A DNA stretch of 64,000 bases, taken from positions 39,042 to 103,041 of the forward strand of contig LNFR01000072.1 of NCBI GenBank assembly GCA_001567185.1, given 5' to 3'. A program made the position numbers and the translations under genes. The DNA is from Bacteroidetes bacterium OLB12. GTDB lineage: Bacteria > Bacteroidota > Bacteroidia > Cytophagales > Cyclobacteriaceae. This document shows positions 46,024 through 60,540 of this stretch, in pieces (within the stretch, counting starts at the first letter, position 1; every line of letters begins with the position of its first letter). The notes beneath the pieces are model-generated. The model saw only the letters and a list, made by a program, of their open reading frames with translations. It was not told the origin of the DNA and searched no databases.

Positions 46024-48267
46024 TTAACCCAGCGAGATATCTTCTTTCAAAAACGGTTGTTGGTAATAACGCTTGCCTTTGGCTTTATACAAGGCATTGG
46101 CCACCGCAGCAAATACCGGTGGAAAGAGCGGCTCGCCCAATCCGGTAGGCTCATGTTCGTTTTTTACAAAGTGTACTTCAATTGCTTTCGGTGCTTCCTT
46201 CTGTCGGATCATCCGATACTGGTGGAAATTATTTTTTTCCGGTACACCATCCACAAAAGTGAGCTCGCCAAACAACGCATTGCCAATACCATCCACTATT
46301 CCACCCTCACCCATGTTAACCGCTGCATCGGGGTTAATCACAATTCCACAATCTACAGCAGCCACAACCTTTTGAACGATGGGCTGGTTGTTCTTCATCT
46401 CCAGGTCAACCACTTCGGCTACATAGGTATTATGGCAGAAGTAAGCAGCTACTCCCCGATTGCCGGCCTGTGTGCCCCAGTTGGATTTCTCCCGCACCAA
46501 CTTCAACACACCGGCATAGCGGTCAGCATCGTAATCGTTATTTTCTCCAACCGGTTTATCTTTTGCTCGTTGCAATAATTCTAACCGAAAATCAATCGGG
46601 TCTTTACCTGCCAACTCCGCCAACTCATCTAAAAACGATTGCTCGGCACCTGCAATAAAATTTGAGCGTGGCGCCCGGAAGGCACCAATCGTAATGTTGG
46701 AATTTATCTGCCAGCCTTCTGCTAAATAATTATCCACAGCGCCAGCCGGAAAACGGTTGGCATGTACGGCATGTTCAGGAACGCCCCCACCTTTTACATG
46801 AAATGCAACCAGGTTATTGTTTTCGTCCAATGCAGCACGATAGGTAGCAGTATAGGTAGGTCTGTAAATGCCATATGTCATATCATCCTCGCGGGTGTAC
46901 ATCATTTTTACCGGTGCATTTAATTTTTGTGAAATTACTGCCGCTTCCACCAGGTGATGACCGTACGCGCGCTGACCGAATCCACCCCCCATGCGCTCCA
47001 GTTTAATGCTGATTTTTTCGCGCGGCATGCCTAACCGGGCCGACAAGGTTTGCATAATAAATTCCGGTGCTTGTATCGGGCCACGGATTTCAGCTTTATC
47101 TGATGTAACGTGGGCAAAACAATTTACCGGCTCCATACAATTGTGTGCGAGAAACGGTGCTGAATACGTGCGCTCCAGCACTTTCGCTGCTTTCTTAAAG
47201 GCTGCTTCAGGGTTGCCATCTCTACGCAACACACTGGCGGGCTTCTTGCTCAGCTCAGCCATCATGGCATTATGTGTTAATGTGCTCTCAAGCCCTGCTG
47301 GAATTGTTACCGTCTGTTTGCCTCCCCATCCGGCCACCACCACGTTCTTATCCGTAATTTTTTCCCATTCAACCTGCACGGATTTTTTAGCATTCAATAC
47401 TTCCCAGGTGGAAGTTCCTGCAACCACAACCAGTTCGGTAAAGGTTGTTGTATCAAACCCGTTGCGTTCGTAATCATCGGCTAACGTTTGAATTACAAAC
47501 ACATCTTTTATTCCGGGCATTGCACGCGCAGCGGCATCATTAACCGATTTAACTTTTAGTCCAAATGCAGGCGGATGCACAATCATGGCAATCAACATTC
47601 CTTCCTGCTTATAATCCATTGTAAACAGGGGCTTGCCCGTTACAATGTTGGCACCTTCTACATTCTTTTTAGAGTTGCCGATTACTTTGAAGTCTTTGAT
47701 TTCTTTTACCGGAACATCTTTTGGCACCTCCAGCTTGGCAGCAATCGAAGCCATTGCGCCATAGCCGGCCTGCTTACCACTTGTTTTATGAAACAACACA
47801 CCTGCTTCTGTAGTGATTTCGTTGGCCGGAACATTCCAGGTTTGAGCTGCGGCATTTTTCAGCATTTGCCGGGCCGTTGCCCCGGCTGTACGTAATGGTT
47901 TCCAGCCCTGGCGAATACCCTGACTTCCACCGGTAAACTGCCGGTTGAAACGCTCCGGAAAAAAATCAGCCTGTTGTACAATTACATTTTTCCAATCCAC
48001 ATCCAACTCATCGGCCAGTATCATGGGCATGGATGTTTTTACATTCGAACCAAACTCCGGGTTTGGTGACATTAACGTAACCACACCATTCTCGCCAATC
48101 TTGATATAACTGTTTAGCTCAAACCATTCTTTTGGAAGCGTCAATAATTCTTCGGCAGTAGGTTTGCATCCGGCCAGCCAGCTAAAGCTCAGCATCATGC
48201 CACCGCCCGCCAATGCGGATACTTTCAGAAATGATCTTCGATCAATGGTATTTTTTACAAGAGTCAT
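46024..48267 (-). CDS. Molybdopterin-binding large subunit of a xanthine-dehydrogenase-family enzyme (IorB-like)
   Basis: 747 residues. A Tat signal (DRRSFLKVSALAGGGMM) marks export to the periplasm, unlike classical xanthine dehydrogenase. The aldehyde-oxidase/XDH large-subunit folds show GGSQGIRQGWK, LERMGGGFGQRAYGHH, GAFRAPRSNFIAGAEQSFLDE, and VVAAVDCGIVINPDAAVNMGEG with EPTGLGEPLFPPV near the end, where the active-site Glu lies. Paired with the 2Fe-2S gene 17 nt upstream, as in IorAB isoquinoline oxidoreductase and related periplasmic hydroxylases. Substrate not determinable. Confidence 0.88.
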   Translation of the reverse strand: MTLVKNTIDRRSFLKVSALAGGGMMLSFSWLAGCKPTAEELLTLPKEWFELNSYIKIGENGVVTLMSPNPEFGSNVKTSMPMILADELDVDWKNVIVQQADFFPERFNRQFTGGSQGIRQGWKPLRTAGATARQMLKNAAAQTWNVPANEITTEAGVLFHKTSGKQAGYGAMASIAAKLEVPKDVPVKEIKDFKVIGNSKKNVEGANIVTGKPLFTMDYKQEGMLIAMIVHPPAFGLKVKSVNDAAARAMPGIKDVFVIQTLADDYERNGFDTTTFTELVVVAGTSTWEVLNAKKSVQVEWEKITDKNVVVAGWGGKQTVTIPAGLESTLTHNAMMAELSKKPASVLRRDGNPEAAFKKAAKVLERTYSAPFLAHNCMEPVNCFAHVTSDKAEIRGPIQAPEFIMQTLSARLGMPREKISIKLERMGGGFGQRAYGHHLVEAAVISQKLNAPVKMMYTREDDMTYGIYRPTYTATYRAALDENNNLVAFHVKGGGVPEHAVHANRFPAGAVDNYLAEGWQINSNITIGAFRAPRSNFIAGAEQSFLDELAELAGKDPIDFRLELLQRAKDKPVGENNDYDADRYAGVLKLVREKSNWGTQAGNRGVAAYFCHNTYVAEVVDLEMKNNQPIVQKVVAAVDCGIVINPDAAVNMGEGGIVDGIGNALFGELTFVDGVPEKNNFHQYRMIRQKEAPKAIEVHFVKNEHEPTGLGEPLFPPVFAAVANALYKAKGKRYYQQPFLKEDISLG

Positions 48268-48284
48268 GATTCAGATGATTTATT

Positions 48285-48746
48285 TCAGGAATTGATTTGA
48301 GCGGCAGTCTTAATAGCTGCTTTAATTCGCAAATAGGTACCACACCGGCAAATATTTCCATTCATGGCTTCTTCAATCTGCTCATCGGTTGGATCAGGAT
48401 TTTCTTCCAGGAAGGCAGCGGCATTCATAATTTGGCCTGCCTGGCAATAGCCACATTGCGGCACATCATGTTCGAGCCACGCTTTCTGTATCGGGTGATC
48501 TCCATTTTTAGATAACCCCTCAATGGTTGTTATTTTCTGCTCTCCCACAGACGAAACCGGAAGTACACACGACCGCATGGCACGGCCATCCAAATGAATA
48601 GTACAGGCGCCACATTGCGCAATACCACAACCATACTTGGTTCCCACCAGATCAAGATGATCTCGAAGTACCCACAAAACAGGCGTTTCCGGATCAACAT
48701 TTACCTCATGTTTTTTACCGTTTACAGTAAGACTAAAGGCTGCCAT
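48285..48746 (-). CDS. 2Fe-2S small subunit of the molybdenum hydroxylase (IorA-like)
   Basis: 153 residues with two 2Fe-2S sites: the plant-type ferredoxin CGIAQCGACTIHLDG plus C near residue 61, and the four-helix domain with CGYCQAGQI and NGNICRCGTYLRI. It passes electrons from the molybdenum subunit. It has no signal peptide of its own, so it would be co-exported with the Tat-tagged large subunit. It is 17 nt upstream of that gene. Confidence 0.92.
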   Translation of the reverse strand: MAAFSLTVNGKKHEVNVDPETPVLWVLRDHLDLVGTKYGCGIAQCGACTIHLDGRAMRSCVLPVSSVGEQKITTIEGLSKNGDHPIQKAWLEHDVPQCGYCQAGQIMNAAAFLEENPDPTDEQIEEAMNGNICRCGTYLRIKAAIKTAAQINS

Positions 48747-49009
48747 AAGTAATGATTTTTAGATTGAAGATGGAATTTAGCAAAAAAACAAACCGGTACA
48801 TTGAGAAAATTGATGAATTTCAAAATAGACACGCTACCCCGCAAAGATGCTCCCAATCCAAGCCTCTAAACTTATACAGATTACAGATTGATCTACCAAT
48901 TTTACTGGTATGCGGTTGATTTTTCCTGCAGCGATGACATTGGGAGCCATCCCTCACATTGGAAACCTGAGACAGGTTGTTTATTTTGGTGGACCTAAAC
49001 ATTCATACT

Positions 49010-49357
49010 ATGATCGTTAAAATAATAAATGCCGTACTCATTCTCGCAGCCGTGTTCATGGGCCTCAAGCAAGGTTCAGCCATGGCCATGGGTAAACCCG
49101 AGATGCTCGAAATGTTTGGTAAATGGGATTTTACTAAAACAGGCGTTATGATCAATGGCATCATTACCATGCTGGCTGCCGTGTTGATTTTGTTTCCCAA
49201 AACATTTGTATGGGGAAATTTTTTGATGGCCGCGGGCATCCTGCTGATTATCTGTTTTCATTTGATGGATAAAGATTTTAAAGGCGTGGCCATCGAACTG
49301 CCGTTTCTCCTATTGAATCTGATCATCATCTACCTGCAGCATCCCCTTAAAAAATGA
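49010..49357 (+). CDS. DoxX-like small membrane protein
   Basis: 115 residues from the ATG at 49010; an open frame from 48977 exists but MIVKIINAVLILAAVFMGLKQ begins the first helix cleanly. Four hydrophobic helices, small-residue rich, in the DoxX-like manner. Role unknown. The stop overlaps the next ATG (ATGA), so translation is coupled to the following gene. Confidence 0.72.
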   Translation: MIVKIINAVLILAAVFMGLKQGSAMAMGKPEMLEMFGKWDFTKTGVMINGIITMLAAVLILFPKTFVWGNFLMAAGILLIICFHLMDKDFKGVAIELPFLLLNLIIIYLQHPLKK

Positions 49358-49755
49358 GGGCAATAATTCTATTCTTTATTTTGGGGATGTTCGGACAAAC
49401 GAACGCCCAACAAACAAACACGCAATCAAAAACCATGGACCTGTCTAAACTAACAAACAAAACCGTGAAGGATGCCATCGAAGCATTGCAAGCCGGTGAC
49501 AAAAGATGGTATTCCTTTTTCGTTGAAAACCCGGAGATGACGGACGATGGAAATTCTGTCAACTTTAAAAGCTTTTTCTCCAAAGCATTGGGTACTGAAA
49601 AATTCCTGACCATCGATAAGGTGGAAAACAACGGCCACGATGTGTACGGAAATTTTAAAGCCGGAAGCTGGGGAACGTTTAAGGTCTTTTTCAAATTTCA
49701 CCAAAATGCCGATGGCAAGTTTTACAAACTGGATATCGGACAAGCTTCGTACTGA
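49354..49755 (+). CDS. Small secreted protein
   Basis: 133 residues with a signal peptide (AIILFFILGMFGQTNAQ). The body, starting LTNKTVKDAIEALQAGDKRWYSFFVENPEMTDDGN and ending GKFYKLDIGQASY, fits an NTF2/SnoaL-like fold only loosely. Function unknown. It overlaps the upstream DoxX-like gene by 4 nt and the downstream antiporter by one nt (TGATG), so the three are likely co-translated. Confidence 0.72.
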   Translation: MRAIILFFILGMFGQTNAQQTNTQSKTMDLSKLTNKTVKDAIEALQAGDKRWYSFFVENPEMTDDGNSVNFKSFFSKALGTEKFLTIDKVENNGHDVYGNFKAGSWGTFKVFFKFHQNADGKFYKLDIGQASY

Positions 49756-51362
49756 TGCACCATAATTTACTGTTCGTTCTGGGGTTATTATTTGCGGTGT
49801 TGCTGTTGGTGATGCTCGCCCACCGCATCCGTGTTGCCTATCCCATCTTTCTGGTTATTGCGGGCTTGAGCATCAGCTTTATTCCGGGAGCACCCGAGGT
49901 TCATTTAGATCCCGAACTGATCTTTTTAATTTTTCTTCCACCCCTGTTGTACGAAGCCGCCTGGTACACTTCGTGGAATGATTTCTGGAAATGGAAGCGA
50001 CCCATTGTGTTGCTGGCGTTCGGCTTAGTGTTTTTTACCTCGATGATCGTGGCGTACGCTTCAGCATACTTTATTCCCGGCTTTACCCTGGCATTAGGAT
50101 TTCTGTTGGGTGGAATCGTATCTCCACCCGATGCGGTTGCAGCGTCAACAGTGTTAAAAGGGATGCGCGTGCCGAAGCGATTGATAACAATTTTGCAAGG
50201 CGAAAGCCTGGTGAATGACGCCTCTTCGCTCATCGTCTATAAGTTTGCACTGGCTGCGGTACTTACCGGAGCCTTTTCGATGCAGGAAGCCACGCAGCAG
50301 TTTTTTATCGTGGCGGGTATGGGCATTGTGGTCGGGTTGATCGGAGCCCACATCATGTATGCGATTCATCGGTTTCTTCCCACCACTGCAGCTATCGATG
50401 CGGCTTTTACCGTAATGACTCCCTACCTGTTATTTTTAGCTGCCGAGCAATTTCACTTTTCTGGCATCATGGCCGTGGTATCGGGCGGCTTGTTTATTTC
50501 CTATCGCTCACATGAAGTATTTCAAACAGGTAGTACCCGATTGAACATGCTGGGTGTTTGGACTACGCTGATCTTTGTATTGAATGCACTTACGTTTGTA
50601 TTGATTGGTCTCGAACTTCCTGAAATTGTGAAGGGACTTGGAGAATATTCCATTGCCGATGGTATTCGCTATGGATTACTAATCAGTGTCCTTACCATCC
50701 TTCTGCGGTTTCTTTGGGTATATCCTTCCGCATTTATTCCGCGCTGGCTTTTTGCCTCTGCGCGCAAAGATCCTTCACCCGGATGGAAAGGACCGTTGGT
50801 CATCAGTTGGGCCGGTATGCGCGGGGTGGTGTCATTGGCTACTGCGTTATCCATTCCGTTGCTCTTAACTGATGGCACTGCATTTCCACATCGCAACCTT
50901 ATTATCTTCATCACCTTTGTTGTGATTTTCGTCACGCTGGTGTTTCAGGGATTAACATTGCCGTTGATTATCAAACTGATCCGCCTGAAGGAAATAGACG
51001 TGATTGCATCGGAAGACGAACAACAGGCCGGCATACAAGTACGAATCGATCGTGTTGCGCTCGACCTCATCACCAAAAAATATACGGAGGAGGCGAAGAC
51101 AAATGAACTGATCGGATTTTTGAAAACGCGTCTTGAGAATGAAATAAGCTCAGCCAGTCAGCAACTCGAATCGTTAACCTGCGATGAAACAGAAAAGTAT
51201 GAGGTTGACCTGTATCACCGCGTGCTTCTGGAAATCTACTCGCTGCAACGAAAAGAACTCTTTTTACTGCGGAAGGAAAAAGTTTTCAGTGATGAAGAAA
51301 TCCGAAAAGCCGAGTTGCAGTTGGATTTGAACGAAATGAAAATAACAGGCGCGCAAGAATAG
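49755..51362 (+). CDS. Na+/H+ antiporter (NhaP/CPA1 family)
   Basis: 535 residues with 12-13 helices and a cytosolic C-terminal tail. Conserved segments are DPELIFLIFLPPLLYEAAW, GGIVSPPDAVAASTVLKG (the CPA1 ion-site helix), LQGESLVNDASSLIVY and SWAGMRGVVSLATALSIPLLL. It exchanges Na+ for H+ for pH and salt control. The long tail (from about residue 420) is helical and probably regulatory. It ends the DoxX-secreted-antiporter operon. Confidence 0.93.
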   Translation: MHHNLLFVLGLLFAVLLLVMLAHRIRVAYPIFLVIAGLSISFIPGAPEVHLDPELIFLIFLPPLLYEAAWYTSWNDFWKWKRPIVLLAFGLVFFTSMIVAYASAYFIPGFTLALGFLLGGIVSPPDAVAASTVLKGMRVPKRLITILQGESLVNDASSLIVYKFALAAVLTGAFSMQEATQQFFIVAGMGIVVGLIGAHIMYAIHRFLPTTAAIDAAFTVMTPYLLFLAAEQFHFSGIMAVVSGGLFISYRSHEVFQTGSTRLNMLGVWTTLIFVLNALTFVLIGLELPEIVKGLGEYSIADGIRYGLLISVLTILLRFLWVYPSAFIPRWLFASARKDPSPGWKGPLVISWAGMRGVVSLATALSIPLLLTDGTAFPHRNLIIFITFVVIFVTLVFQGLTLPLIIKLIRLKEIDVIASEDEQQAGIQVRIDRVALDLITKKYTEEAKTNELIGFLKTRLENEISSASQQLESLTCDETEKYEVDLYHRVLLEIYSLQRKELFLLRKEKVFSDEEIRKAELQLDLNEMKITGAQE

Positions 51363-51474: not shown

Positions 51475-51663
51475 ATGACAACGAAAGACATAAAATCAGC
51501 GATTCAAAAATCGCTGGACAACGTACCCGAAAGTGTACTTCAGGACGTATTGAATTTTTTAAAGCAGGTGGAAAATCAACCCGCAGATAAGGTGAACCTG
51601 GCAAGAAATTTCCGGGATATATTGATGGAAGACAAAGAACTCCTTGAAAGACTTGCTAAATGA
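51475..51663 (+). CDS. Putative antitoxin of the Doc pair
   Basis: 62 residues: MTTKDIKSAIQKSLDNVPES, then a helix and a charged C-terminus (RDILMEDKELLERLAK) that might wrap the toxin. It is not a Phd homologue by eye; it looks like short DUF2281-type antitoxins. Its stop overlaps the toxin ATG (ATGA). Only the context supports the antitoxin call. Confidence 0.65.
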   Translation: MTTKDIKSAIQKSLDNVPESVLQDVLNFLKQVENQPADKVNLARNFRDILMEDKELLERLAK

Positions 51664-52034
51664 TTGATATTGTCGAGGTCGAAAAGATACATGATATTCT
51701 AATAGAAAAGTTTGGTGGCGTAAAAGGCATTCGCGACAAAGGACTACTTGAATCATCCATCAACAGACCCTTTCAAACCTTTGACGGACAGGAATTATAT
51801 CCACACCCGATAGACAAAACTGCAGCGATTTTTGAAAGTATCATTGCGAATCACCCGTTTATTGATGGTAACAAACGAACCGCCTACGTACTCATGCGAC
51901 TTACGCTTAAAAATTATGGCATTGATATTCACTCAGTACAAAACGATAAATATGACTTTGTTATTAAAGCAGCTAGCGGACAAGTGAAGTTTGATCAAAT
52001 AAAACTCTGGATTAAAAACAATTTAAAATCGTAG
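51660..52034 (+). CDS. Doc/Fic-type toxin
   Basis: 124 residues with the Fic core motif HPFIDGNKRTA (HxFxDGNKR, the form seen in Doc), which makes Doc a kinase that phosphorylates EF-Tu rather than an AMP-transferase. The rest (DIVEVEKIHDILIEKFGGVKGIRDKGLLESSINRP) is typical of short death-on-curing toxins. All key residues are present, so it is likely active. Partner gene immediately upstream, overlapping 4 nt. Confidence 0.9.
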   Translation: MIDIVEVEKIHDILIEKFGGVKGIRDKGLLESSINRPFQTFDGQELYPHPIDKTAAIFESIIANHPFIDGNKRTAYVLMRLTLKNYGIDIHSVQNDKYDFVIKAASGQVKFDQIKLWIKNNLKS

Positions 52035-52096: not shown

Positions 52097-53115
52097 ATGA
52101 ATGTATCAAGTCATTACAGGTTGCAGCATTTCATACCGTGGACACGCACCAAGATTTATAAAATGCTTGTGCTGAGCACGGTGCCAACCATGTTGTTTTA
52201 TTTTTTAGGATGGCATTGGCTGGCCATTCCCTGGGTGCCGGTAGCGCTCATCGGCACGGCAACGGCTTTCATTTCAGGATTTAGAAATACACAAACCTAT
52301 AACCGCACCTGGGAGGCACGCCAGATCTACGGGTCCATCATCAACAGCAGTCGCACGTTCGGCATGTTGATACGCGACTTTGTGCGCGTGAATGACAAAA
52401 CGAAAGAAGCGTCTTTACACAAAGAATTGATCTACCGTCATTTCGCGTGGTTAACGGCCCTGCGATTTCAACTGCGTGAAACTAAATCGTGGGAGTACGT
52501 GAAGATCCGAAGTTATAACCGCGAGTATTTGAAATATTATAAAGTACCCGAATGGGAAAACAAACTTGATGAGGAGTTGAAGTCTTTTATTGATGACGAA
52601 GAACTAAAGCATACGCTGGCGACCAAAAACAGAGCCACACAAATTTTTAGCGAAGCAGTCGGCCCGGCTCCGGAAATTAAATGAAGAAGGTGCGATTACG
52701 GATTTCAACTACGTGTCGCTGGAAAATCAATTGAAGGATTTATACGATCACCAGGGCCGAGCCGAACGCATCAAAAACTTTCCGTATCCACGGCAGTTTA
52801 CGAGCATCAATTTTATTTTTCACCAACATCCTGTGCTTCCTGATCCCGTTGGGATTTCTGGGAGAGTTTTCAAAGCTGATGGAAAAACACGGTGAACACA
52901 TCATCTGGTTTACCATTCTGTTCAGCGTGCTGTTAGGTTGGGTGTTCCTGGTGCTGGAGCAAATTGGAGAAAGTACGGAAAATCCATTTGAAGGAAGTGC
53001 GAACGACATACCCATCACGCAAATCAGTCGCATGATCGAAATCGATCTGCGCGAGATGCTGGGCGAAACAGATCTGCCTGAGCCGTTAACTCCTGTCAAT
53101 AATATTTTACTTTAA
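52097..53115 (+). CDS. Bestrophin-family anion channel, two apparent frameshifts
   Basis: The first frame (52097-52684) starts MNVSSHYRLQHFIPWTRTK and has the bacterial bestrophin core TATAFISGFRNTQTYNRTW and RQIYGSIINSSRTFGMLIRD. It breaks at a T5 run (52644-52648); dropping a T continues AKQSARLRKLNEEGAITDFN, and dropping an A near 52809 continues FTNILCFLIPLGFLGEFSKL to 53115. Net length 1019 nt equals 339 codons plus two. Homologues form pentameric anion (Cl-, HCO3-) channels. The LCIB-like gene starts 11 nt later on the same strand, so they probably share a transcript. Confidence 0.9.
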
Positions 53116-53126
53116 ACCTGAACCCT

Positions 53127-53873
53127 ATGCCAAGCCCTTATCTTGATACAGTAAAGAAATGGTATCCAAACGCCATGACAACGGTAGATACCGTGAACAG
53201 ATTGTTGGATGTAATTGAGGAAAAACTCCACCTGAAACCAAACCAACTCATGCATGCCGACAGTATGTGTTGTGATGATGTGAACGCCATACAATATCCG
53301 CCCCGTGCTTATGAAATGTTAGGACCGTTTAAGATGGGCGGACTCAACGGGTTTCCATTTGCCGGTGTAACGGGAATGAATGCCTTTGCTCATCATGTAC
53401 CCGAAGATGGTGCGGTGGTGGTTTTTTACGCACCGCATATCGGAATAACGAAGGATGGTACCATTGGAGAAATTCATCGCATCGGACAAAGCAAAAACTC
53501 CGGATGCTGTGGTGCAGCAAAAGCCGCGCTTGGCAAATTATTGAAAAATGAGATACAACACGGTGCTGTAACAGACCTGGACTACCAGATGAATACGATC
53601 GAGCAAATTTTTCTGAAGCAGGCCGACCGGATCAAATCAGCATCCAATCAGATTTTCGAAGCCACCGAAGTAATGTATGAGGCCATCAACACGCGCATAG
53701 AAGAGTTGGTGGCTAAAACCGATTACCCGTGCAAATACCTGATATTAATTGGAGCGGTTTTCATCAATGGCGATCGGGAAATGGGATCGTTCTGTTCGTA
53801 TAAACGATTTGAATACATCGATCTGAAAACAAACAAGCGGACTGATTTGCTTAAGTGCTATTACGATTTTTGA
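53127..53873 (+). CDS. LCIB-family (theta-type) carbonic anhydrase homologue
   Basis: 248 residues. Three stretches match the limiting-CO2-inducible LCIB/C family, whose members have a beta-carbonic-anhydrase-like zinc site: DSMCCDDVNAI (Cys48, Cys49, Asp50, Asp51), GGLNGFPFAGVTGMNAFAHHVPEDG (His89, His90) and NSGCCGAAKAA (Cys127, Cys128). Cys-His-Cys zinc ligands and an Asp plus Arg (Arg60 candidate) would be available. YAPHIGITKDGTIGEIHRIG also fits the family. There is no signal peptide, so it is cytosolic. The gene follows a bestrophin channel gene after 11 nt. Activity is not certain, since some LCIB members are inactive. Confidence 0.85.
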   Translation: MPSPYLDTVKKWYPNAMTTVDTVNRLLDVIEEKLHLKPNQLMHADSMCCDDVNAIQYPPRAYEMLGPFKMGGLNGFPFAGVTGMNAFAHHVPEDGAVVVFYAPHIGITKDGTIGEIHRIGQSKNSGCCGAAKAALGKLLKNEIQHGAVTDLDYQMNTIEQIFLKQADRIKSASNQIFEATEVMYEAINTRIEELVAKTDYPCKYLILIGAVFINGDREMGSFCSYKRFEYIDLKTNKRTDLLKCYYDF

Positions 53874-54106: not shown

Positions 54107-54800
54107 TCATCTTGCTGTGTACTTCAGCCAAACTACTCCATGATCCAACGTCTTTACATCGGCTAGTTCTAATTCTTGAATAGCCTTTTTAGGAAGACCC
54201 GCAGCCACTTCGAAAGAGGTTGGCGTGTTGGGTGTGCCATCGGCAAATGGCATCACGAGAATACTGACTTCATCAATCAGCCGTGCATGAAGAAGAGAAC
54301 CATTGATGTGTCCACCTCCTTCGAGCATCAATGTCTTAATTCCAAAAACGTCATACAGTTGACTGAGCGCATAGGCGAAATCAATGGAGTCCTTACCAGC
54401 AAAAATGTAAGAGATGTTTTTGTCCTGAAGGTATTGAAGATACTGATCGCTGACGGACTCGTTGAGAAGTTCAATGATGTGATCTCCGTCTATTTCATTT
54501 TCATCCCAGCCAAGTTTGCCTTTGGAATCGACCGCGATTGCAAATGACTTGGCCTCTTTATCTGCCACATGCGGAGTTCTGGGAAACGTTTTGCCTGGCT
54601 TGGGTAGGTCGGGTTTCCTCCCTTCCGTAAAATCCTTCTCCATCGTAACCCTTCCTACCATCCAGGCTTGACTATTAAAGCTGTTGTGACATTGCTCAAA
54701 CAGCCCTGAAAAACTTTTTATAACTATCACCCCAATTGTCCACAATCGTTCTGCCATCAATTGTGGAAGCCATGTGACATATTACCCGTGGTTTGTTCAT
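54107..54800 (-). CDS. RibD C-terminal / dihydrofolate-reductase-fold protein, apparent frameshift
   Basis: The start at 54800 gives MNKPRVICHMASTIDGRTIV, the family opening; a T5 run on the minus strand (54709-54713) breaks the frame and dropping one T restores YKKFSGLFEQCHNSF. The remaining 210 residues read on cleanly: GGGHINGSLLHARLIDEVSILVMP is typical of RibD_C reductases. The 694-nt span is one more than a multiple of three. NADPH-dependent reductase of unknown substrate; not clustered with riboflavin genes. Confidence 0.85.
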
Positions 54801-54861
54801 ATTCTTTTGTTGTTTTTTGTTATCTCTGATGCTGCTTGTTAAAATCGAAGACAGCAACAAA

Positions 54862-55951
54862 TCAGATTGTTACTGACCTGCCATCACGAATACCTTCATT
54901 AGCTTTTAAGATCAAAGTATCATTCTCATGGAGATCGCCACTAAAAATCTCAACACTGTCTTCTGATTCCAGGCCCGTCTCTACCGGTAGCCAGGCAGCT
55001 TTGCCGGCCACAACTTTAATCACAAACACTCCCTCGGAAGTATTCATCACAGCCGTCTTTGGAACAACGAGGGTTTGCGTTCTGCTTTGCATAACTAAGT
55101 TAACCTGTCCGATCATACCTGGCAATAAGTTGCCATGTGTGTTTTCAATGTCCATCTCCATTCGTTCAGAACGCAAACGGCTATCTAATGCACCCGACAT
55201 TCTACTTACCTTTCCGTAAAATTCTTTCCCTTTTATTGAATTCACTTTAAAGGTCAGCGAGTCACCAATCTTTAAGTAGCCGGTGTATTGTTCCGGAATC
55301 GAGGTGCTCAGTCTGAGTGTGGAGATTTGCTGAATCGTAATCAAGGGCTGATTATTGCTTCCGCCAACAAATGCGCCCACATTCACATTCCGGTTGGTAA
55401 TAATTCCGTCAAATGGCGCACGGATTTCCAGGTAGTTACGCATGTTGCTGATCTCTCTGTGATTTGCACGTGCAGCTTCCGCTTGTGCAAGATCCGCATT
55501 GCGCTTTGCCAACGCTTGTTCCAGATCATTGGCAGAAATGGTCCCTGCCACTTTGCTTGTTTCGAGTATTCGGTTATAGGTGGCATCAGAAGCAAGATAA
55601 ATTGCCTCCTGTGATTTTAGATGAGATTCAGCCACGGATAGCCGCGAGTTGATTTCAGGTGCCTCCAACACAACGATGAGTTGGCCGGCTTTTACCTTAC
55701 TACCAATATCAACGTTCAGTGTTTTTATGTAGCCAGTTACCTTGGCAAAGATATCCACCTGTCTGTATCCCGTAAGTTCAGCAGGTAACGATACTTGTGC
55801 AGATACTTCACTTTTTTTTAACCGCGAATACTTCGGTCTTTTCTACCTCCTGTATGGCGTTACTTGCGCTGTCATTGGCCTTACTGTTACTACAGGAGTA
55901 AAATGCAATGGAGGCACAGGCAACCATTAACAAAATCAAAATCTTTTTCAT
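54862..55951 (-). CDS. RND efflux periplasmic adaptor (HlyD/MFP family), apparent frameshift
   Basis: From the ATG at 55951 the lipoprotein signal MKKILILLMVACASIAFYSC leads to a frame break at the T8 run of the plus strand (55812-55819). Dropping one base gives KKSEVSAQVSLPAELTGYRQ and joins the long frame (VDIFAKVTGYIKTLNVDIGSKVKAGQLIVVLEAPE), a biotinyl-lipoyl-like adaptor with a coiled-coil hairpin, about 362 residues. The adaptor bridges the RND pump and the outer membrane channel. It lies 11 nt after the RND gene. Confidence 0.88.
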
Positions 55952-55962
55952 CTGTCTATAAT

Positions 55963-58900
55963 TTATTTAGCGTTATCAAAATATTTACTATGCTCATCAT
56001 CCGGATGCAAGGAGACAGACTGCGTACTTGTTCTATTCTGAATCCATGCATAGATGAGCGGTAAGATCACCAGCACGGCAAAAGTTGAAAACAAAAGCCC
56101 ACCGATCACGGCTCTACCCAATGGAGCTACTTGCTCTCCACTTTCTCCATGACCGATTGCCATGGGCAACATCCCTACTACCATGGCCACGGTTGTCATC
56201 ATGATAGGACGTAACCTTAACGAAGCTGCCTTCTTCGCAGCTTCCAGCGCATTGCCGGTTTCCAGTCTGATGTGTTCAGCATTTGTAATCAGCAGTACGG
56301 CATTTGCAATGGAAACGCCTACTGACATAATGATGCCCATGTATGATTGCAGATTTAACGTTGAACCGGTAAGCAATAGCAGCAGTAAAGAACCTAAAAC
56401 TACCGCGGGTATTGCCGTGAGTATGGTAAGCGAAACTTTGAACGATTGGAAGTTTGCCGCCAGCATCAGGAATATAACCACAACCGCTACAAACAATCCG
56501 CCTTCAAGACTCGACAAGGTTTCTTCCAGCACGGTTCCTAGTCCTACCTGATCGATAAACAAACCTCGGGGTAGTTCACCCAAATTATCAATCACTTGTT
56601 GCACCGCTTTGGATGCAGTACCAAGATCGTTGTGATCAATATTAGCCGTGACTGACAAGAAAGGCATGGTACCGATGTTATCATTCTCACCGTTTGTTGT
56701 GGTATTGGTAATTTGTACCACATCACCCAAAATCGGTCGGGTAGCATTGTTTAACAGCGGGATTTGAATAATATCATCTATGCTCTTCATTTGGTTGGTT
56801 GGAATCTGAACCTGCACATTGTAAGTCTGACCGAACGGCTCATCCACCCACATATTTTGAGCGGTATATCTTGAAGAAGATGTGGAAGCTACAAGTGAGC
56901 GACTGATGTCGTTCATATCCACACCAAGTTGGGCAGCTTTGGTTCGGTCGATATCAATGTTTAATGCCGGGTAGCTAAACGACTGTGCGATTTGTACATC
57001 TCTTAGATAAGGAATCGTGCTAAGGCTGTCAACCAATCGTTTTGCGTAGGTTGCATTGTTTGCCTTGTTTGCACCACTTACTCTGATTTCAATGGGTGTT
57101 GTTGAACCCTGACTAAGGATTCTGTCCGTTAATTCAATGGGCTCAAAGGAAAGTTTCAATTCGGGAATATTTTTATTGATTCGCTTTCTCAGTTCATCTT
57201 TAAAGTCATCCATATCGGTATGCAAGTCTTTTAGAGAAACCTGGTAAACGGCCTCATGCGATCCTGCCATAAATAAATAGATTGGAGATACCGAATACTG
57301 TGCAGGGTGCATGCCTACCATGGCAGAGGTAATGCCGATGTGTTCTTTTCCGGCAAGTCCTTCAATCTCATCCAACACCCGCAGTGATAGTTTTTCGGTC
57401 TGCTCCATTCGGGTTCCTTCCGGGGCGCGCACTCTAAGCTGGAACTGACTGGAATTGACTTTTGGAAATACATCCCTTCCAATGATATTGATGGCCAATA
57501 CTGCCAAAAGAGAAATACCGATTAAATAACTTACTGATACTAGTCTTCTTTTGCTCAACAATCTTTCCTGAAGGTTCATGAATTTGTTTCTGAACTTATC
57601 GAACCGACTTACTTTATGGTCTTCTTCTTTTGTATGATCGTTTCCCTTCATGATCCAGTTTGCCATTACCGGAACAAATGTTTGTGATAGAAGAAAAGAG
57701 GTGATCATAGCAAAGCCGATAGCAAGCGACATGGGTAGAAACAAAGCCCCTGGTATTCCATCCATAGTCAATGCCGGAACAAACACGGCAAGAATACTCA
57801 TTAAGATCAACAGCTTTGGAAGTGCAATCTCCTTACAGGCATCCCAGATCGCTCTTGCTTTAGATTTACCCATATCCAAATGTTGATGGATGTTTTCGAT
57901 GGTCACCGTACTCTCATCAACCAATATCCCGATGGATAGCGCCAGCCCACTTAAGGTCATCAGGTTAATGGTTTGCCCGAATAGCTGCAAAAAGATGACG
58001 CTTGAAATAACGGAGGTTGGAATGGTGAGAATGACAATCAACGCTGCCCTGCGGTCGCCTAAAAATAATATCACCATCAACCCGGTAAGTATGGCTCCAA
58101 TAACGCCTTCGGTAAGAAGACTTTCAACCGAATTCATTACGTAAACCGACTGGTCAAACTCATACGTTAATTCGACATCGGCCGGCAACATACTTTGAAT
58201 GCGTGGAAGATTTGCCTTTAATTGCTTTACCACATCCCACGTAGAGGCATCTGCTGATTTCGCTACACTTAAATACACGGAGCGATTTCCGTTTACGAGT
58301 GCGTACCCTTGCACCAGGTCAGCTCCATCTTTTACGGTTGCAATATCTCCGATCGTCAGGTTGTTGACATTTCCTTTGAAAAGTGGAATCGTTTCAAAAT
58401 CCTTAACCGCTCTTACTGTATTGTTGGTTGGTGTGATGTAATTGTACCTGCCAATCCGGGCACCACCGGGAGGAGAAGTACGGTTGTTGATCTGAATGGC
58501 TTCAACTACCTGATCAATGGTAAGACTATGCGCGCGCAATTGGTCGGGGTGTACATTGATCTCAATCGTTCTTGGGCTACCACCAAACGGAGGGGATGAA
58601 AGCAGGCCGGGTATTGCCGTAAAACTGGAGCGAACGGTAGTGTTTGCAAGCTCCTGCAATTCATTATTCGATTTTGTGTTGCTGCTTAAAACCAATTGTC
58701 CTACCGGTAATGACGAAGCATCGAAGCGAACAATGAACGGAGGACTTGAACCTGGCGGAAATGCTACCTGCATGCGGTTGGAAAACGCTGAAACTTCCGC
58801 AGCAGCCTGAGCCATATCCGTTCCTTCATAGAAGGTAAGTTTCATCAACGTTAAGCCCTGAATGTTTTTCGATTCGATGGACTTTACTCCATTTACCATG

Positions 58901-59115
58901 ATGAAAATGCCCACATACTTTTTGCCGAAATAAGCTTCCATCTGATCGGGAGTATATCCGCCAAACGGGTGCGCCAGGTAGATAACCGGCAAATTCATTT
59001 GGGGTAAGATGTCAATCTTGGCATTGTTTACCGCTCTTATTCCAAAGAAGAATAAGGTGGCTACCAATACCATGATACTAATGGGTTTATGTAGCGCAAA
59101 GCGTATCAGGTTCAT
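55963..59115 (-). CDS. RND-family efflux permease
   Basis: 1050 residues with twelve helices and two large periplasmic loops, matching the AcrB/HAE1 group. Segments: ALHKPISIMVLVATLFFFGI at the start, LSGLALSIGILVDESTVTIEN (helix 4, the proton-relay helix with Asp), and LRPIMMTTVAMVVGMLPMAIG in the second half. Drug, solvent or metal substrate cannot be told. It is between the adaptor (55.9 kb) and the TolC-type gene, in the order TolC, RND, adaptor on the minus strand. Confidence 0.95.
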   Translation of the reverse strand: MNLIRFALHKPISIMVLVATLFFFGIRAVNNAKIDILPQMNLPVIYLAHPFGGYTPDQMEAYFGKKYVGIFIMVNGVKSIESKNIQGLTLMKLTFYEGTDMAQAAAEVSAFSNRMQVAFPPGSSPPFIVRFDASSLPVGQLVLSSNTKSNNELQELANTTVRSSFTAIPGLLSSPPFGGSPRTIEINVHPDQLRAHSLTIDQVVEAIQINNRTSPPGGARIGRYNYITPTNNTVRAVKDFETIPLFKGNVNNLTIGDIATVKDGADLVQGYALVNGNRSVYLSVAKSADASTWDVVKQLKANLPRIQSMLPADVELTYEFDQSVYVMNSVESLLTEGVIGAILTGLMVILFLGDRRAALIVILTIPTSVISSVIFLQLFGQTINLMTLSGLALSIGILVDESTVTIENIHQHLDMGKSKARAIWDACKEIALPKLLILMSILAVFVPALTMDGIPGALFLPMSLAIGFAMITSFLLSQTFVPVMANWIMKGNDHTKEEDHKVSRFDKFRNKFMNLQERLLSKRRLVSVSYLIGISLLAVLAINIIGRDVFPKVNSSQFQLRVRAPEGTRMEQTEKLSLRVLDEIEGLAGKEHIGITSAMVGMHPAQYSVSPIYLFMAGSHEAVYQVSLKDLHTDMDDFKDELRKRINKNIPELKLSFEPIELTDRILSQGSTTPIEIRVSGANKANNATYAKRLVDSLSTIPYLRDVQIAQSFSYPALNIDIDRTKAAQLGVDMNDISRSLVASTSSSRYTAQNMWVDEPFGQTYNVQVQIPTNQMKSIDDIIQIPLLNNATRPILGDVVQITNTTTNGENDNIGTMPFLSVTANIDHNDLGTASKAVQQVIDNLGELPRGLFIDQVGLGTVLEETLSSLEGGLFVAVVVIFLMLAANFQSFKVSLTILTAIPAVVLGSLLLLLLTGSTLNLQSYMGIIMSVGVSIANAVLLITNAEHIRLETGNALEAAKKAASLRLRPIMMTTVAMVVGMLPMAIGHGESGEQVAPLGRAVIGGLLFSTFAVLVILPLIYAWIQNRTSTQSVSLHPDDEHSKYFDNAK

Positions 59116-59125
59116 ATTCTTTAAA

Positions 59126-60525
59126 TTAAAACTGGTCGATAAATAAATTGAAATCGCCTACGGCCGCTGCTTTCATCAATAGACTCTGCCATAAATTGAC
59201 AGCTATAATGTCTGCATCAGTTTCGGCACGGTTAAGTGCATACTGTGTTGTGATTACATCAGTAAGGTTGGTTAATCCGTTGTTGTATAAAGTAAGTCGT
59301 TGGGTGTATGCCTGCTGTGCAGCTTCCACCTGGTTCGGAGCTTCTCTGTAATTCTCCAGGGCATAAGCAATTCTTGAATTGGCCGCATCTTCACGACTTC
59401 TCAACTCCAGGTCAATTGCTTTATACTCTTCTTCCAATCCGGCTGTAATTAATTTTTGTGATGCAATATTTCTGTTAGCCCGCGAGATGGAAGTCAGATT
59501 CCAAACTACGCCTACACCAAAGAGATAATTTTGTCGTGTCGGGTTAATGCCCTGGAGGTAATCGCTCGTGAATGAAGTTCGGTCTGTTGCATAGTCTGAA
59601 CTAAACCCTGAAGCCCTGGTTTGATAGACACCGAAAATTGAAAATGACGGCATGTAATCCTTTCGATATTGTTGCGCAGTTTGATTACTATAATCAATTC
59701 GACTTTTGAAATATTGCCTTGCAGGGTGACTTATACTATCATCAGCATTCAATGCTTGCTGAATCTGGAAAGGCCCGGTAAACAAAAAGCTGCTGTCCAA
59801 TTCTATGCTTGATATTTCTGATCCAAGGAGTTGTGCTAAGTCATTATTCCTCGCTTTTGTTTCTGCTAATGCCTGATTAAGCGTGATCTTCGCCCGCGAT
59901 ACTTCTGCCATTGCCATGGTAGAATCGACCCCCGGCAACATGCCTGTCTTTACCCGGGTTGCAATGTTGTCTTTAATAACAATTGCGCGTTCCAGATTTT
60001 TTTGCTGCGATATTAAAAGACGCTGGCTTGCCAACAGGTTTAAGTACGCGGATGCCACTTTTACTTTATGTTCGAATATTTCCTGTTGATATTCTTCGTT
60101 CACCTGATTCGCTTCGGCCCTGGCAAGCGCAATGCGTTGTTTGTTTCGTCCGAAGGAGAAGAACTCCCAATTGATATTGGCCAGGTAGAGCGCTCCGAAA
60201 GCTGCATCCCAATTTTGTTCGGCTGAGGGAAGACCCGATGAAGCAACGCCCAAACCACCTAAGCCATAAGCCGGTCCGTTTTGGCCGTTTACAGTGCCGT
60301 AACTTTGCTGCGCTGATAAATTGAAATTGGGTAAATAGTCCCGCTTTGCCTTTTCAATTCTTTCGTAGGAAGCAACGACATAGTTTTTTTGGCCTTAATA
60401 TTTCCGTAGTTGCTCACTGCTTTTTCCACGGCATCGTTCATTGATAATGGTTGAGCTTTGCCAGCGTTTACCCATAAGGCAATAGCAAGAAAAAGGAGCA
60501 TGGTATATTTTGCTTTGCAGTTCAT
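59126..60525 (-). CDS. TolC-family outer membrane channel of the RND set, apparent frameshift
   Basis: From the start near 60525 (MNCKAKYTMLLFLAIALWVNAGKAQ) the frame breaks at the A-run 60384-60390; adding one A gives AKKNYVVASYERIEKAKRDYLPNF and joins the main frame (60253-59126), about 466 residues. Long coiled-coil hairpins (RLTLYNNGLTNLTDVITTQYALN) and RIALARAEANQVNEEYQQEI are typical. Outer-membrane duct for the RND pump 10 nt downstream. The start could also be at 60540. Confidence 0.88.
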
Positions 60526-60540
60526 TTTTTCCGTAATCAT

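Follow-up and report, generated by a model that had tools for sequence, protein, structure and literature searches.

A DNA window of 64,000 nucleotides from Bacteroidetes bacterium OLB12 carries bestrophin sequence followed, after 11 nt and on the same strand, by a gene for an LCIB-family carbonic anhydrase (CA) homologue. With about even confidence, we take this arrangement to be one copy of a recurrent Bacteroidota module in which interconversion of CO2 and HCO3- is coupled to ion flow. The computational results on which this reading draws are of five kinds: membership of the protein families, conservation of the ligand residues, clustering of the genes, exchange of LCIB for a beta-CA at the same place, and recurrent cation pathways. 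The features of the window that concern us, all on the plus strand, are these:

48977..49357, plus strand: DoxX_2-like small membrane protein, first of the co-directional cluster (PF13564, E 3.9e-7)
49354..49755, plus strand: NTF2-fold protein, 133 aa (AlphaFold model, pLDDT 86.5, with Foldseek)
49755..51362, plus strand: CPA1 Na+/H+ antiporter, 535 aa (PF00999, E 3e-56; TIGR00831, 354 bits against a cut-off of 279.6)
51475..51663, plus strand: 62-aa frame from the ORF list, putative antitoxin by position and 4-nt overlap
51660..52034, plus strand: Doc/Fic-type death-on-curing toxin gene (TIGR01550, 58.5 bits against a cut-off of 38.65)
52097..52684, plus strand: bestrophin, N-terminal part with pore neck T/F/F (PF25539, E 6e-17, 62.5 bits)
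52626..52802, plus strand: bestrophin, middle part in a second frame (profile piece 157-215, E 4e-6, by six-frame reading)
52849..53115, plus strand: bestrophin, C-terminal part in a third frame (PF25539, E 3.7e-10, 40.2 bits)
53127..53873, plus strand: LCIB-family (theta/beta-like) carbonic anhydrase homologue, 248 aa (PF18599, E 2e-70, with Foldseek)

The 248-aa product is an LCIB-family protein, by profile and by predicted fold. A first-pass annotation had proposed this from CCDD, HH and CCGAAK motifs, and named a search against the family profile beforehand as the test; the Pfam search returned 237 bits against a curated cut-off of 25. The motifs are all present (SMCCDDVN, GGLNGFPFAGVTG...AFAHH and GCCGAAK), and by eye there is no signal peptide. 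The best sequence match in the PDB is 6kfs (E 2.4e-29); PtLCIB4 and Chlamydomonas LCIB/LCIC are also among the matches. The predicted model (pLDDT 83.8, pTM 0.84) resembles diatom PtLCIB4 (PDB 5b5y; Foldseek E 3e-16, TM 0.76) and 6kfs (E 3e-15); LCIB-family chains take Foldseek ranks 1-8, and beta-CAs come next at E 0.06. The predicted zinc site can be placed as follows:

53268..53270, plus strand: codon of C48, predicted zinc ligand 1 (C in 115/115 rows; the residue before the PtLCIB4 S47 position)
53394..53396, plus strand: codon of H90, predicted zinc ligand 2 (H in 115/115 rows; aligns with PtLCIB4 H88 by spacing from S47)
53508..53510, plus strand: codon of C128, predicted zinc ligand 3 (C in 115/115 rows)

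From published structures, we take C48, H90 and C128 to be the zinc ligands. Together with D50 and R118 they are invariant in all 115 aligned LCIB rows, a set that includes the duplicate records L082, L084 and L092 (these three are absent from the tree discussed below) and omits, as the tree does, the broken 101-aa frame of L071. A structure alignment (A1) takes in the window plus 35 of the 80 loci described below. PtLCIB4 and 6kfs share with the window protein the fold and the positions of the Cys, His and Cys residues, at about 25-29% identity by fold alignment. Residue 49, the position altered in the PtLCIB4 S47R structure, is Cys in the window; it is Cys or Ser in 87/87 close rows and Ser in 47 of these, and PtLCIB4 has Ser there. 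The zinc site proposed at first pass thus stands as an alignment of invariant residues; its three-dimensional geometry is not readable from the model, in which residues 50-55 and 70-77 have pLDDT below 50. Going by these residues, the protein would be expected to hydrate CO2. It is not the sole carbonic anhydrase of its genome, an idea that was dropped since two beta-CAs are found there as well.

The bestrophin is less tidy. The first-pass annotation described a bestrophin gene followed by LCIB after 11 nt: the bestrophin sequence, the strand and the gap all hold, and the single gene does not, as this assembly contains no one complete reading frame. The frame at 52097-52684 ends after 195 aa, and the protein continues in pieces in two other frames, of which the middle one lies at G000:C72:91667-91843 on the genome contig. 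Both pieces tested against PF25539 exceed its cut-off of 27 (62.5 and 40.2 bits). In 61 other loci the bestrophin close to LCIB is an unbroken single frame, 327-353 aa long; broken bestrophins do occur elsewhere, for example in G542 and G520. The breaks might mean that the window copy is a decaying operon, with an inserted toxin-antitoxin pair and a bestrophin pseudogene, and the pieces in three frames, the unbroken state of the other 61 and the low G+C of the inserted segment would all fit this. We consider it doubtful: the outer pieces are still conserved in relatives, the middle piece still matches the profile, and neighbouring genes appear to be split too, which makes errors of assembly the clearly likelier cause. 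The RibD-like gene just downstream of LCIB has its start in another frame, and its Pfam match sets in at profile position 41, the 40 positions before it being unmatched; two further genes at 54862-60540 look split by eye alone. In the interval 54107-60540, N-terminal parts in another frame belong to this RibD-like gene and, judged by eye, to two members of an RND-type transporter cluster, a pattern suggestive of indel errors in this stretch of the assembly.

The presumed insert lies between the antiporter and the bestrophin. Local G+C falls there to 37%, against 44-45%, and the Doc/Fic gene finds no homologue within five genes on either side of LCIB in other loci, so 51475-52034 is probably a later, recent-looking insertion of toxin-antitoxin type. 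An NCBIfam search with the 62-aa putative antitoxin gave no match. A PADLOC defence search with the Doc/Fic gene gave partial matches to candidate families, the best at E 9e-12.

Each of the three genes that lead the cluster matches a cluster of genes found near LCIB elsewhere. The DoxX_2-like protein (listed with a TTG start, although the real one may lie further in) belongs with 24 proteins near LCIB in other loci, the best at 81% identity. The NTF2-fold gene overlaps it by 4 nt and has homologues near LCIB in 20 loci; its product bears, by eye, a signal or lipoprotein N-terminus and gave no match in a Pfam search. The Foldseek matches of its model are headed by C-terminal domains of the orange carotenoid protein (E about 1e-5, TM 0.56) and include the NTF2-like 3dmc (E 3e-5). 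The antiporter start overlaps the NTF2-fold gene's stop by 1 nt, and the antiporter itself is 83% identical to one upstream of the bestrophin in L006. On the minus strand at 46024-48746, reading of the translation suggests genes for an aldehyde-oxidoreductase-type large subunit and a 2Fe-2S small subunit.

How general the pairing is was addressed by a contig scan with the LCIB protein as query. The best 80 of 101 loci were analysed, and are therefore near relatives; they come from records named Bacteroidota or their taxa, except that L055 is titled 'bacterium'. The first pass had called for a survey of adjacency across Bacteroidota, and the pair proves to be widespread there: among these best 80 of 101, 61 loci have a bestrophin at most three genes away from LCIB, and the two genes share a strand in 61/61, LCIB lying downstream in 58 and upstream in 3. 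These linked loci span ten named families in five orders, besides 12 loci without an assigned family. Spacing was taken from a partly different set of 61 pairs: 49 gaps of 1-100 nt, 6 longer gaps, and 6 overlaps, the last measured from the first possible start codon. In the other 19 of the best 80 LCIB has no bestrophin within five genes; two of them, L057 and L061, have one about 4.9 kb upstream, with an antiporter between in L057. Within the set used for spacing, distances among LCIB proteins and among their bestrophins are correlated (r 0.65, a value reached in 0 of 5000 permutations), a result that speaks for joint inheritance and not for function.

Beyond near relatives the link thins out. 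LCIB was found in 8 of 58 relatives searched (the window's genome included) and in 35 of 395 genomes of the phylum. A bestrophin adjoins it in 5 of the 12 LCIB genomes of the class found in this way, and is lacking beside it in 7; outside the class none of 29 LCIB genomes has the pair, and 28 of these 29 gave no bestrophin match, so that a phylum-wide link is ruled out. In a class sample of 149 genomes LCIB lacks an adjoining bestrophin in 3 of 6. These surveys overlap and are not independent (L084 is L067, L082 is L050, L092 is L014, L159 is L007 and L176 is L048). Outside the class, a second and more distant group of LCIB homologues (family codes f42 and f65, loci among L093-L117) has no bestrophin alongside, and a DEAD-box helicase gene is among its neighbours. 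In the Spirosoma loci L062 and L071 a membrane H+-pyrophosphatase with an OmpA domain stands directly before LCIB, without a bestrophin within five genes; the assignment is by profile in L062 and by cluster mate in L071.

Distribution within lineages is sporadic in a way that points to exchange. The window LCIB is 83% identical to proteins of Flavobacterium croceum and Chryseobacterium and at most 64% identical to copies from its own genus (L082, L084, L086, L088 and L089). In the tree (a quick search with SH-aLRT support only and three long rows present) it falls in a 39-row set with support 100, in which many families are mixed and 38 of 39 members have a bestrophin. Given these identities and the mixed-family tree, transfer of the module between lineages would be the simple reading. 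A PLSDB search for LCIB on plasmids gave no match. A candidate bestrophin-LCIB fusion, a 582-aa frame in G457, was rejected, as the locus reads as two separate genes with an overlapping open frame.

The place beside the bestrophin can be filled by either CA family. This emerges from the class sample, drawn without regard to the pair: 149 genomes, 73 of which contain 134 bestrophins, after split pieces were joined and two matches below the cut-off (G550:C165 and G000:C91) were dropped. Sixteen of the 134 adjoin a carbonic anhydrase: 13 a beta-CA (PF00484; one half of a split beta-CA in G523 is left out) and 3 an LCIB. In each of the 16 pairs both genes lie on one strand, and in 15 the CA follows downstream of the bestrophin. 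Where a bestrophin and a beta-CA share a contig, the distances that separate them are bimodal: 13 fall at 173-1366 bp, and the next is 52 kb. Because of this bimodality, and because 61/61 linked LCIB loci share one strand, the pairing is more than chance. The remaining 118 bestrophins have no CA beside them; the link thus belongs to part of the family only. By size, a CA adjoins 0/34 short-form, 7/44 middle and 8/52 long-form bestrophins; four rows lie outside these bins, among them the window's, which is linked. In a second set of 57 bestrophins, which like the first contains the window, 4 adjoin a beta-CA (one of the 4 being a 104-aa piece) and 5 an LCIB; one further beta-CA-adjoining bestrophin was met in G328, among seven further genomes. 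Of the evidence gathered, this exchange of one CA family for the other in a single position speaks most strongly for CA activity as the point of the pairing. This beta-CA version goes beyond the first-pass annotation, as do the co-directional antiporter, the DoxX-like and NTF2-fold genes and the toxin-antitoxin-like insert.

A cation pathway is the third recurrent element. In the window it is the co-directional Na+/H+ antiporter upstream. Among the 61 linked loci (of the best 80 of 101) a K+ channel (PF07885) occurs in 31, directly upstream of the bestrophin in 30, and a CPA1 antiporter in 10; the two never occur together, a count of raw loci uncorrected for shared descent, with labels clustered on the tree. 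The remaining 20 of these 61 have neither pathway recognisable within the genes seen. Of the 38 loci in the near clade, 33 carry a K+ channel or an antiporter. The selectivity filter [ST][IV]G[FY]GD is present in 33/33 members of the K+ channel cluster, whose best PDB matches are KCNQ channels. A K+ channel of another type, TMEM175, was identified by profile in L172 and L173, where its gene separates bestrophin from beta-CA, and in L003, where it lies close to LCIB; L026 has the cluster mate of the L003 gene. At G014 (L086) an antiporter directly follows LCIB, with no bestrophin there.

The bestrophin pore gives a hint of what may pass. Klebsiella KpBest (PDB 4wd7) belongs to the same family; the unbroken relative in L005 matches it in two stretches (E 4.9e-27). 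It differs in the neck, where KpBest has I/I/F (I62/I66/F70) and the window T/F/F, and it is a Na+ channel in which the change I66F favours Cl-, according to PMC8496536. Phe occupies the I66 place in the window and in 63/63 LCIB-linked bestrophins; since I66F makes KpBest favour Cl-, this hints that LCIB-linked bestrophins may be anion selective. From there HCO3- permeability would be a further step. At the first neck position 60 of the 63 have Thr, where eukaryotic bestrophins have Ile. Phe is also found in 7/17 beta-CA-linked and 13/36 unlinked bestrophins; the notion that it marks CA-linked bestrophins was therefore abandoned, the Phe neck being a trait of the long-form clade. The unlinked group began as 40 bestrophins not beside LCIB, hand-picked from longer lists: L147 was dropped as read in the wrong frame, L146 and L154 as copies of beta-CA-linked G008 genes (L174 and L165), and L148 (neck I) was moved to the linked group, leaving 36 and 17. 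Of the 17 beta-CA-linked bestrophins of the two sets above, 16 were taken for the neck comparison; the piece from G033 was left out.

How might such a module work? In the cytoplasm, the LCIB-type carbonic anhydrase would hydrate respiratory CO2, yielding HCO3- and H+; the inside-negative potential would drive HCO3- out through the bestrophin pore, and the proton would stay inside; the cation pathway encoded in the cluster would balance the charge, through a K+ channel in about half of the linked relatives and through the Na+/H+ antiporter here. On balance, cation would go out and H+ come in, acidifying the cytoplasm or serving homeostasis of pH and potential, and the module would be most useful under alkaline or cation stress. 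Catalytic activity, HCO3- permeability, outward direction and physiological purpose are what we infer in this scheme. For the direction, Nernst arithmetic is instructive. Membranes are freely crossed by CO2. With 2 mM HCO3- outside and a potential of -120 mV, HCO3- inside would stand at 0.019 mM at equilibrium, about 1% of the outside value, whereas CO2 by itself would supply at least 0.15 mM for the CO2 and pH values used in the calculation; net flow would thus be outward. Since an open HCO3- channel would cost membrane potential, tight gating would be required.

The same arithmetic weighs on a different view of the pair. The first-pass annotation had offered two purposes, anaplerotic carboxylation and pH control. 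Under the former, HCO3- would be taken in through the bestrophin and LCIB would balance CO2 and HCO3- for anaplerotic carboxylases. The genome does have a piece of PEP carboxylase, at a contig end, and the lack of a Rubisco match in the 92% complete assembly makes anaplerosis a plausible use of carbon. A passive channel in an inside-negative cell would drive HCO3- outwards, holding it inside below what CO2 equilibration provides; moreover, the genome already has its two beta-CAs, and the K+ channel and antiporter partners would have no obvious role. Intake is therefore the less likely of the two purposes, and in our judgement unlikely overall; pH control is retained as a supported reading. A neighbouring possibility keeps the outward direction and changes the purpose: the bestrophin would be a general anion valve (for Cl-, HCO3- and organic anions) paired with K+ exit in the release of salt and volume, with the CA supplying HCO3- as a cheap counter-ion in osmotic downshift. 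The K+ channel directly upstream of the bestrophin in 30 of the 61 linked loci (among the best 80 of 101), and the TMEM175 genes of L003, L172 and L173 (by profile) and of L026 (by cluster), speak for it; such a valve would need no partner as specific as a CA that recurs from two families, and the version with the antiporter fits poorly. It too seems to us improbable.

There remains the thought that the genes do not act together at all, being passengers in a shared mobile stress cluster of AraC, SDR, DoxX and aldehyde dehydrogenase genes. Such stress-type neighbours do recur, and patchy presence within the genus, with mixed families in the tree, suggests transfer. We find this quite improbable: the paired bestrophins are divergent (28-77% identical to the N-terminal piece in the window), the enzyme is LCIB in some loci and a beta-CA in others, LCIB pairs occur in either gene order, and some loci with the pair lack these stress genes.

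The pH-control reading, in which HCO3- leaves the cell, can be carried one step further, more tentatively. A CA of either family, a bestrophin acting as an HCO3- channel and a K+ channel might together constitute a composite ion exchanger, one that might correspond in bacteria to the LCIB-bestrophin partnership of algae and perhaps be ancestral to it. K+ out with H+ in is also what a cation/H+ antiporter achieves, and this would account for the way in which K+ channel and antiporter stand in for each other in these clusters.

Other systems invite comparison. Bacteria have fusions of SulP transporters with carbonic anhydrases, in which a CA is likewise coupled with an anion transporter; these differ in that the transporter family is unrelated, and in that separate genes are involved here. 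The CO2-concentrating mechanism of Chlamydomonas employs the same two protein families, as LCIB/LCIC and BST1-3. In PMC6708349 and PMC8825250, LCIB/LCIC are reported to interact with thylakoid BST proteins, as the first-pass annotation stated, and BST1-3 are proposed to carry HCO3- out of the stroma into the thylakoid lumen, the same sidedness as the outflow proposed here. Unlike that of the alga, the bacterial module is a gene pair, often with a K+ channel or Na+/H+ antiporter, and its link is known from genes; also unlike the algal mechanism, it occurs here in a genome whose 92% complete assembly gave no match to Rubisco (PF00016). Each protein family and the algal partnership are thus known, and the bacterial bestrophin-CA pair is apparently undescribed in the literature searched: no description came up in a full-text literature search that yielded mainly listings and abstract openings, nor in passages of PMC6708349, PMC8496536, PMC8825250, PMC7215798 and PMC8119650, and an earlier mention is possible, for example in the 2016 LCIB structure paper or the 2005 paper on prokaryotic bestrophins.

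To our knowledge, little is known of the roles that bacterial bestrophins play in their hosts. Their genetic link to two CA families leads to a testable hypothesis of substrate, HCO3-, and the module is carried by culturable hosts in Chryseobacterium, Dyadobacter and Flavobacterium. These offer a non-photosynthetic setting in which to study the LCIB-bestrophin partnering of algal CO2-concentrating mechanisms, with relevance to building such mechanisms into crops. If the composite exchanger were true, a class of bacterial bestrophins would be bicarbonate channels.
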